This document shows, piece after piece, positions 349 to 1,551 of a stretch of DNA of 37,546 nucleotides (position 1 is the stretch's first letter; every line of letters begins with the position of its first letter). Position numbers and translations under genes: made by a program. This DNA comes from Gammaproteobacteria bacterium. Lineage in GTDB: Bacteria > Pseudomonadota > Gammaproteobacteria > Pseudomonadales > Azotimanducaceae. The stretch spans positions 1 through 37,546 of the forward strand of contig JABJED010000092.1 in the NCBI GenBank assembly GCA_018665025.1, read 5' to 3'. A model generated the notes under the pieces. It did not search any database. It was not told the origin of the DNA and worked only from the letters and a program-made list of their open reading frames with translations.

Positions 349-368
349 AGTCTTTTCCTGAAGCAGCC

Positions 369-397
369 AAAAAAAAACCCGCCGTTGGCGGGTTTTT
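369..397 (-). terminator. Intrinsic terminator in the ileS 5' leader (attenuator terminator)
   Basis: Minus strand AAAAACCCGCC-AAC-GGCGGGTTTTTTTTT: 6-bp GC stem (392-387 with 383-378), 3-nt loop, A/T extension and a 9-T tract, about 20 nt before the ileS ATG. Confidence 0.9.
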
Positions 398-423
398 CAA
401 TGCTGCTCACGCATCAACCCACC
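387..423 (-). promoter_or_regulatory. Putative antiterminator helix competing with the ileS leader terminator
   Basis: 5'-GGUGGGUU (423-416) can pair with AACCCGCC (394-387), 8 bp with one G-U; the second arm is the 5' arm of the terminator, and the first arm overlaps the last codons and stop of the leader ORF. Confidence 0.7.
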
Positions 424-479
424 ATTCGGTGCCGAACAATGATAATTATGCTGATTACCGTGATGCGCAGTGAATTCAT
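414..479 (-). CDS. Putative isoleucine-rich attenuator leader peptide MNSLRITVISIIIIVRHRMVG
   Basis: ATG AAT TCA CTG CGC ATC ACG GTA ATC AGC ATA ATT ATC ATT GTT CGG CAC CGA ATG GTG GGT TGA; 6 Ile in 21 codons including four in a row, directly before the terminator of ileS. Confidence 0.78.
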   Translation of the reverse strand: MNSLRITVISIIIIVRHRMVG

Positions 480-486
480 GGGGCAC

Positions 487-514
487 AGGATAGTTCATCG
501 GCGGCACTTGTCAA
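487..514 (-). promoter_or_regulatory. Putative sigma70 promoter for the ileS leader
   Basis: TTGACA (514-509), 16-nt spacer, TATCCT (492-487); -35 overlaps the prs stop codon. Confidence 0.5.
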
Positions 515-1551
515 GGAGCCTCATTATGTACCCCTGTCACACTGCCCCTTGAGTTGATCTTCTCCAGTACCTGGGCAATCAGCGGCTCAATGTGAAACGT
601 ATGGTACCAGTGGGGGGTGTTTTCGTGGCAAATAACACTGGTACCGACCATATTGAATTCCCAACCCTCATTTTCAGCGCGGGTTCGTATGTCTGTCAGT
701 CGTTGCCATGCCGAGCCATTGAATAGTGGGTGCACGCAGGCCACATTGATGTTTCTGGCGCCCTGCTTTTTTAACTCATCGATCGCTGAAACGACGGACC
801 CTGCGGTATCGATAATATCGTCAACCAAGAGTACGTCGCGGTCTTTGACCTCTCCTATTAGCGTAGAACGGAACACATGGTTTGGCTTGGAGTAATCCCT
901 TTCTTTTGACAGGGCTGCCAGGTCCGCAGACAGTTCTTCCGCATAGGCGCGCGCTCTTTCGAGATAACCGACATCGGGTGAAACGACTACATCGCCTGTT
1001 AACTTCTGGCGGCGCAACCAGGAAACGAGTTGCCTGGTTAGAAAGACATTTTCCAGATGGGCCATCGATGGATTGAACATACCGGCGATGGAATCATTGT
1101 GGATCTCAACGGTCATCACACGATCCGTTCCTGCGCTTTGCATCATTCTGGCGAAGAGCCCCGCGCTGATGCCTTCCCTTGTTCTGCCCTTGCGTTTGTC
1201 TTGCCTGGCGCCAGGGTAATAGGGGACAACGGCGGTGATGTATTGGGCATCTGAAAGCGCAGCCGCTTCTATGGCATGGAGCAGCATCAGGAATCTGTCA
1301 TAGATGCTCCGTTCATCCTGGGGGCCTGCGGTCGACTGAAAGATATAGACATCGTGACCGCGAACATTAGCGCCGATTTCGAATTTCCCCTCACCGCAGG
1401 CAAACCAGGTTTCGTTGGTTGGCAGCAACGTTGTGCCCATTTTTGATGCCACGGATTCCGCGAAGGCACGTCCGGATTCGCAGGTCATCAGGGCAATAGG
1501 TGCTCTTGGATTCTTTTGTCGAGGTGCTTTTCTTTTCATTTTCGTATTCAT
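511..1551 (-). CDS. prs: Ribose-phosphate pyrophosphokinase, divergent Prs family
   Basis: ARQDKRKGRTREGISAGLFARMMQSAGTDRVMTVEIHNDSIAGMF and PRPP-binding VLLVDDIIDTAGS match PRPP synthetase architecture. Confidence 0.85.
   Translation of the reverse strand: MNTKMKRKAPRQKNPRAPIALMTCESGRAFAESVASKMGTTLLPTNETWFACGEGKFEIGANVRGHDVYIFQSTAGPQDERSIYDRFLMLLHAIEAAALSDAQYITAVVPYYPGARQDKRKGRTREGISAGLFARMMQSAGTDRVMTVEIHNDSIAGMFNPSMAHLENVFLTRQLVSWLRRQKLTGDVVVSPDVGYLERARAYAEELSADLAALSKERDYSKPNHVFRSTLIGEVKDRDVLLVDDIIDTAGSVVSAIDELKKQGARNINVACVHPLFNGSAWQRLTDIRTRAENEGWEFNMVGTSVICHENTPHWYHTFHIEPLIAQVLEKINSRGSVTGVHNEAP

Follow-up and report, generated by a model that had tools for sequence, protein, structure and literature searches.

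The ileS gene at one end of the window, a 37,546-nucleotide gammaproteobacterial contig that was analysed over its whole length, is preceded by a short Ile-rich open reading frame and a hairpin, which raises the question of whether these make up a regulatory switch or are only accidental neighbours. The first-pass annotation had read them as an Ile-codon transcription attenuator, and every element that it had placed on the minus strand (leader ORF, Ile run, both helix arms, T-run, and ileS ATG) was found in its place (Table 1). The locus contains an in-frame run of Ile codons, a terminator between the leader ORF and ileS, and an antiterminator that excludes the terminator, the features by which leader-peptide attenuators are recognized. 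On the comparative evidence, the leader is very probably an attenuator of transcription that works through the ribosome and ties the expression of ileS to tRNA-Ile charging. The parts of this putative switch, their order and spacing, their conservation, and the alternative pairing follow directly from the sequence and its comparison with relatives.

Table 1. Features of the ileS leader region, in coordinates of the window
Feature	Coordinates	Strand	Basis or remark
ileS, first 116 codons	1..348	minus	TIGR00392; ATG at 348; coding sequence runs off the contig end
Shine-Dalgarno-like AGGA of ileS	356..359	minus	sequence inspection
Terminator 3' arm GGCGGG and U-tract	369..383	minus	GGCGGGTT into T-run ending at 369
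Terminator 5' arm GAAAAACCCGCC	387..398	minus	common to the antiterminator; includes AACCCGCC at 394-387
Nested hairpin GAUGC-GUGAGCA-GCAUU	399..415	minus	in the antiterminator loop; RNA folding
Leader ORF MNSLRITVISIIIIVRHRMVG*	414..479	minus	ATG 479, TGA 416-414; 6 Ile in 21 codons
Antiterminator strand GGUGGGUU (DNA GGTGGGTT)	416..423	minus	overlaps the leader stop codon
Ile control-codon run ATA-ATT-ATC-ATT	438..449	minus	inside the leader ORF
Sigma-70-like promoter TTGACA-16-TATCCT	487..514	minus	near-consensus; equivalent in most of 34 homologous leaders
prs-like upstream gene, ribose-phosphate diphosphokinase	511..1551	minus	TIGR01251, 256 bits, over cut-off; stop codon inside the -35 box

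The contribution of chance was estimated by a scan of the window, a pattern search of the host genome, and a reading-frame control. The scan covered both strands and picked out stop codons that had four or more Ile codons among the 16 codons before them and an intrinsic terminator no more than 110 nt away. Its sole match in the whole window was the ileS leader, and the same scan of 10 shuffled windows gave no match. The pattern GGTGGGTTRA-N10-40-AACCCGCC likewise occurred once in the host genome, at the ileS leader. For the comparison with relatives, the sequences upstream of ileS homologs were gathered, and 34 leaders were anchored on the stop codon for codon counts; they carried 174 Ile codons in frame vs 18 and 35 in the remaining two frames, counts that include close relatives and do not represent independent events.

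Folding of the window leader produced the terminator hairpin. A simple terminator scanner passed it over, probably because its stem extends into the T-tract. The antiterminator arises from an 8-bp pairing with one G-U between positions 423-416 and 394-387, and in a fold of the truncated transcript it formed with all 8 bp at -16.5 kcal/mol, the nested hairpin included. An antiterminator of at least 5 bp was also the predicted fold of 33 of 36 leaders deprived of the 3' arm, often with a nested hairpin present. The antiterminator was just 4 bp long in three leaders (L021, L022, and L120). The nested hairpin of the relatives had a similar position and a different sequence (mean z -1.2, 36 leaders). 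The mean energy of the terminator was -16.4 kcal/mol and that of the antiterminator somewhat weaker, -14.6 kcal/mol, which implies that antitermination must depend on kinetics and blocking. The third position of the antiterminator was U where the terminator has C in all 34 leaders, and as this U-G wobble was always present, a search for an exact repeat, i.e., an antiterminator identical to the terminator 3' arm, found none. Pairing of GGUGGG with upstream RNA, as in a 1:2 protector hairpin, was observed at 0.88 vs 0.80 in shuffles, so that a conserved 1:2 hairpin was not significant against the shuffles; it was clear in single cases only, e.g., Marinomonas. Upstream of the type-2 ileS of Marinomonas spartinae (L054), a perfect 13-bp inverted repeat, ACTCAACAACGAA...TTCGTTGTTGAGT, flanks the Ile run as a textbook 1:2 hairpin.

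The same layout, an Ile-run mini-ORF, GGTGGGTT at its stop codon, a terminator of the form AACCCGCC-loop-GGCGGGTTTTTT, and a type-2 ileS, was present in 10 of the 24 sampled genera of the window's family and in other families, including a second family of Pseudomonadales, as well as in M. spartinae and Veronia nyctiphanis. The recurrence, in front of ileS, of an Ile run followed by a stop-codon antiterminator and a terminator speaks for the attenuator. Homologous leaders without conserved Ile codons or without the competing helix had been named beforehand as what would count against it, and examination of the homologs left the reading standing. In the 34 leaders, Ile codons clustered between codons -7 and -16, with none among the last five, and in 26 leaders the distance from the start of the last Ile codon to the antiterminator was exactly 14 nt. 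All three Ile codons were used (ATT 85, ATC 42, and ATA 30), indicating that the amino acid, not the bases, is conserved. The motifs GGTGGG, CCCGCC, and GGCGGG were nearly invariant, with GGUGGG conserved in at least 32 of the 34 rows at each column and GGCGGGTT in all of them, while the remaining leader sequence diverged. An alignment of relatives had been expected to reveal both a conserved Ile run and covariation of the two helices; the former was borne out, and both helix arms proved invariant, with a single peripheral pair covarying, so that the reading draws no support from covariation.

This pattern of conservation bears on whether the mini-ORF could encode a small peptide with a function of its own, or whether the leader RNA, once terminated, could act in trans, as does the leaderless leader RNA of Sinorhizobium meliloti trpL, which starts with ATG (PMC7298713). 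We regard such a role as improbable, because the N-terminus of the peptide differs between genera, and only the Ile codons and a C-terminal (M)VG are conserved, the codons of the latter being the antiterminator at the RNA level; it would in any case be compatible with attenuation. Two leaders departed from the common form: L136 has lost most of its Ile codons, and L043 is a natural variant whose early stop (..IISIIHN*), shortly upstream of the conserved MVG* stop, would end translation before the antiterminator.

A sigma-70-like promoter, absent from the first-pass description, precedes the leader (Table 1). It overlaps the prs stop codon, and its -10 box is only 7 nt from the leader ATG, so the start of the leader transcript is expected at about 479-481. 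In most of the 34 homologous leaders, 6-8 nt separate the start codon from the end of a near-consensus promoter (TTGACA, 16 nt, TATCCT or similar), and many related leaders in front of genes other than ileS show the same spacing. With usual promoter spacing, the transcript would start at the ATG or within two bases of it, and the leader ORF is thus probably leaderless. The promoter also bears on the idea that the hairpin is merely the terminator of the upstream prs and the Ile-rich ORF a chance frame. The hairpin does come after prs in the host genome, AACCCGCC/GGCGGGTT hairpins are common as terminators, and most weak matches of our covariance model (see below) were terminator-only, but the promoter sits between prs and the hairpin, and the leaders of ileS have kept the Ile codons with their frame and spacing as well as the antiterminator. 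Moreover, the sequence upstream of the leader differs in some relatives, one of which (L009) has another terminator just before the leader promoter, and no similar site was found elsewhere in the window or in shuffles. A chance frame beside a prs terminator is thus very unlikely.

If the leader is a ribosome-mediated attenuator, it would work as follows. RNA polymerase would begin at the leader ATG or about two bases away at most, and the 5'-terminal AUG would be where a ribosome loads. When charged tRNA-Ile is scarce, the ribosome would stall on the Ile codons with its leading edge just short of GGUGGGUU, leaving this strand free to pair with the emerging AACCCGCC, so that the terminator would be blocked and ileS transcribed. 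When charged tRNA-Ile is plentiful, the ribosome would reach the stop codon within the antiterminator strand and cover the strand, and the terminator would form. The IleRS produced would restore charging, closing the loop. The edge of the ribosome footprint lies about 12-13 nt past the A site, and the positions of the Ile codons and of the antiterminator fit this edge. From this arrangement we infer the actual transcription start, the translation of the leader, and the direction and size of the response.

The gene under this putative control was traced in a draft genome of 4.8 Mb (544 contigs, 87% complete, 7% contaminated), to which the closest named records are those of marine Pseudomonadales and of further gammaproteobacterial metagenome genomes, OM182 among them. 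The window is a contig end, and a C-terminal part of ileS was located on a second contig (C154:5-1372). For the first 116 residues, the part compared, the NCBIfam models that ranked next to the general ileS model were NF000258 (MupB) and NF000257 (MupA), by which sequence criterion the window IleRS is a type-2 (eukaryote-like), MupA/MupB-like enzyme. One strong ileS per genome was found in the 20 family genomes checked; other matches of the ileS model there were far below the cut-off and resembled ValS, LeuS, and MetG by size and coverage, the exception being ileS itself where it is split over contigs (G000 and G150). With a single strong IleRS in the lineage, the switch would control the sole, essential IleRS. 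The notion that the host ileS is a second IleRS, i.e., a resistance gene, was considered and rejected, as the host has one IleRS. Type-2 enzymes are known for their low sensitivity to mupirocin. A second IleRS was found only in Marinomonas, Veronia, Vibrio sp. MEBiC08052, and P. luteoviolacea; M. spartinae and V. nyctiphanis possess a type-1 IleRS besides the leader-bearing type-2 enzyme. The second, type-2 ileS of Vibrio sp. MEBiC08052 (L069) has an unrelated terminator, CCCGATAG...CTATCGGG, after the ORF MDILLHQLQQIFLIITYT, which is possibly an independently evolved Ile attenuator.

The leader is absent in many relatives, including 6 of 14 of the same genus: the small genomes of that genus, genus g23, and many other genera are without it. 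On a tree of the IleRS N-terminus (35 rows, support weak in places), leader presence was clustered and required several changes, a pattern that does not demonstrate a single origin. Two relatives (L027 and L031) have kept the promoter and hairpin upstream of ileS and lost the Ile ORF, and four (L121, L122, L129, and L145) have kept the promoter and lost both the Ile ORF and the hairpin. These six appear to represent decay, in g1 mostly in small genomes.

The leader is also found away from ileS. A covariance model built from the 34 ileS leaders was run on other genomes; in the class-wide search at E 0.01, most matches below about 37 bits were terminator-only and were disregarded. The model revealed full-length Ile-rich leaders in other families before ilvA, citramalate/isopropylmalate-synthase-like, P-loop kinase-like, SnoaL-like, and GNAT genes. 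The first two of these belong to the Ile pathway, which speaks for the attenuator reading. In other Pseudomonadales, the core precedes ilvA (L245, L249, and L260) and a LeuA/CimA-like (citramalate/isopropylmalate-synthase-like) gene (L270), and the element is therefore not limited to ileS. This bears on the alternative that IleRS binds and represses its own leader, like thrS in E. coli, with the leader ORF being secondary. Autogenous control of aminoacyl-tRNA synthetase genes is known (thrS, mentioned in PMC2965389) and may form a second layer here, but it leaves unexplained the Ile-codon run, its fixed distance from the antiterminator, and the occurrence of the same leader before genes that do not encode IleRS; as the main mechanism, we consider it highly improbable.

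Several groups of these leaders had features of their own. Nine leaders from several families (L247, L250, L252, L256, L259, and L261-L264) end in ...RIIIIP*, have the same antiterminator and terminator, and are followed by a small gene of P-loop kinase-like type (AAA_18, weak match). Ile-rich leaders with the same core stand before SnoaL-like genes (L215, L217, L218, L253, L254, and L255) and before a GNAT gene followed by one for a pentapeptide-repeat-like protein (L216), and some peptides of this group end in WWVF or WWVC. One genome (G545) has two copies of the Ile-rich leader element, and G545:C55:7644-7771 grouped with the SnoaL-like/GNAT leaders.

Attenuation of aminoacyl-tRNA synthetase genes is reportedly treated by Lopatovskaya et al. 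(2010). The type of mechanism proposed here is classical ribosome-mediated attenuation, and ileS as its target appears to be undescribed in searchable papers: no paper on an ileS leader-peptide attenuator was found in the searchable open-access literature, and our claim of novelty is limited to that scope. The first-pass annotation had been reserved on the novelty, and its reservation stands, as the searched literature gave pheST, trpS, leuS, and hisS as leader-peptide targets and reported ileS with T-boxes (PMC1262725; for hisS and hisZ of bacilli, with His leader peptides, PMC2965389). The E. coli pheM-pheST region (NC_000913.3), our positive control, has its parts in the order seen in the ileS leader: control codons, stop, GGAGGCT, AGCCTCC, GGAGGCTTTTTTT. 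It resembles the ileS leader in belonging to an aminoacyl-tRNA synthetase operon, in a leader peptide rich in the cognate residue, in a strand 2 that adjoins the stop codon, in a strand 3 that is the terminator 5' arm, and in a strand 4 followed by a U-tract. However, the residue is Phe instead of Ile, the sequences are unrelated, pheM strand 2 comes after the stop codon instead of overlapping it, and the pheM ATG has an upstream Shine-Dalgarno-like stretch, whereas the ileS leaders are probably leaderless. E. coli ilvGMEDA senses Ile, Val, and Leu together, whereas the ileS leader would sense essentially Ile only. Proteobacterial attenuators of the ilv type, such as those of Shewanella ilvG, ilvI, and leuA (PMC2659441), share the leader peptide enriched in branched-chain residues and the intrinsic terminator, but serve biosynthesis operons, not a synthetase gene. 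Streptomyces trpS and leuS and bacillar hisS and hisZ have leader-peptide attenuators before synthetase or synthetase-related genes, but for other amino acids and in other phyla. The transcript of S. meliloti trpL is reported to begin at the leader-ORF ATG (PMC7298713), as the ileS leader transcript would; trpL differs in serving Trp biosynthesis in an alphaproteobacterium. A Caulobacter crescentus "ileS leader CDS" (CCNA_03934), also a small CDS upstream of ileS, is named as a negative control in a text without its mechanism or sequence (PMC4117421), and its likeness to the window leader is one of name and position. The least probable alternative, a T-box or other RNA sensing tRNA or a ligand directly, has in its favour that T-boxes control ileS in Firmicutes and Actinobacteria (PMC1262725), the same gene responding to the same signal, tRNA-Ile charging, but T-boxes bind tRNA directly with no leader translation, whereas the roughly 110 nt from promoter to terminator are mostly leader ORF with frame-specific Ile conservation. 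No Rfam family matched the window at gathering score, so that a T-box, as defined by Stem I, a specifier codon, and an antiterminator bulge pairing with the tRNA acceptor, was not found.

If the attenuator reading is true, ileS would join the short list of aminoacyl-tRNA synthetase genes under translated-leader control, and the gram-negative counterpart of the ileS T-box would be supplied. The switch would be a compact one, the leader ORF being fused with the antiterminator, the stop codon, and probably also the start of transcription. More tentatively, and as a reading that is less likely than not, we propose that in two-IleRS bacteria (M. spartinae and V. nyctiphanis) the attenuator may keep the type-2 enzyme shut down until Ile runs short or the type-1 enzyme meets an inhibitor, acting as a built-in sensor of IleRS inhibitors, and that leaderless Ile attenuators in Pseudomonadales and relatives may form a class with one RNA core that has spread to a regulon (ileS, ilvA, and the citramalate/isopropylmalate-synthase-like, kinase-like, SnoaL-like, and GNAT genes). 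That ilvA and other genes share the core points to an Ile-attenuator regulon, one that a single covariance model could map, and in the two-IleRS cases inhibitor-inducible expression of the second synthetase would become directly testable.
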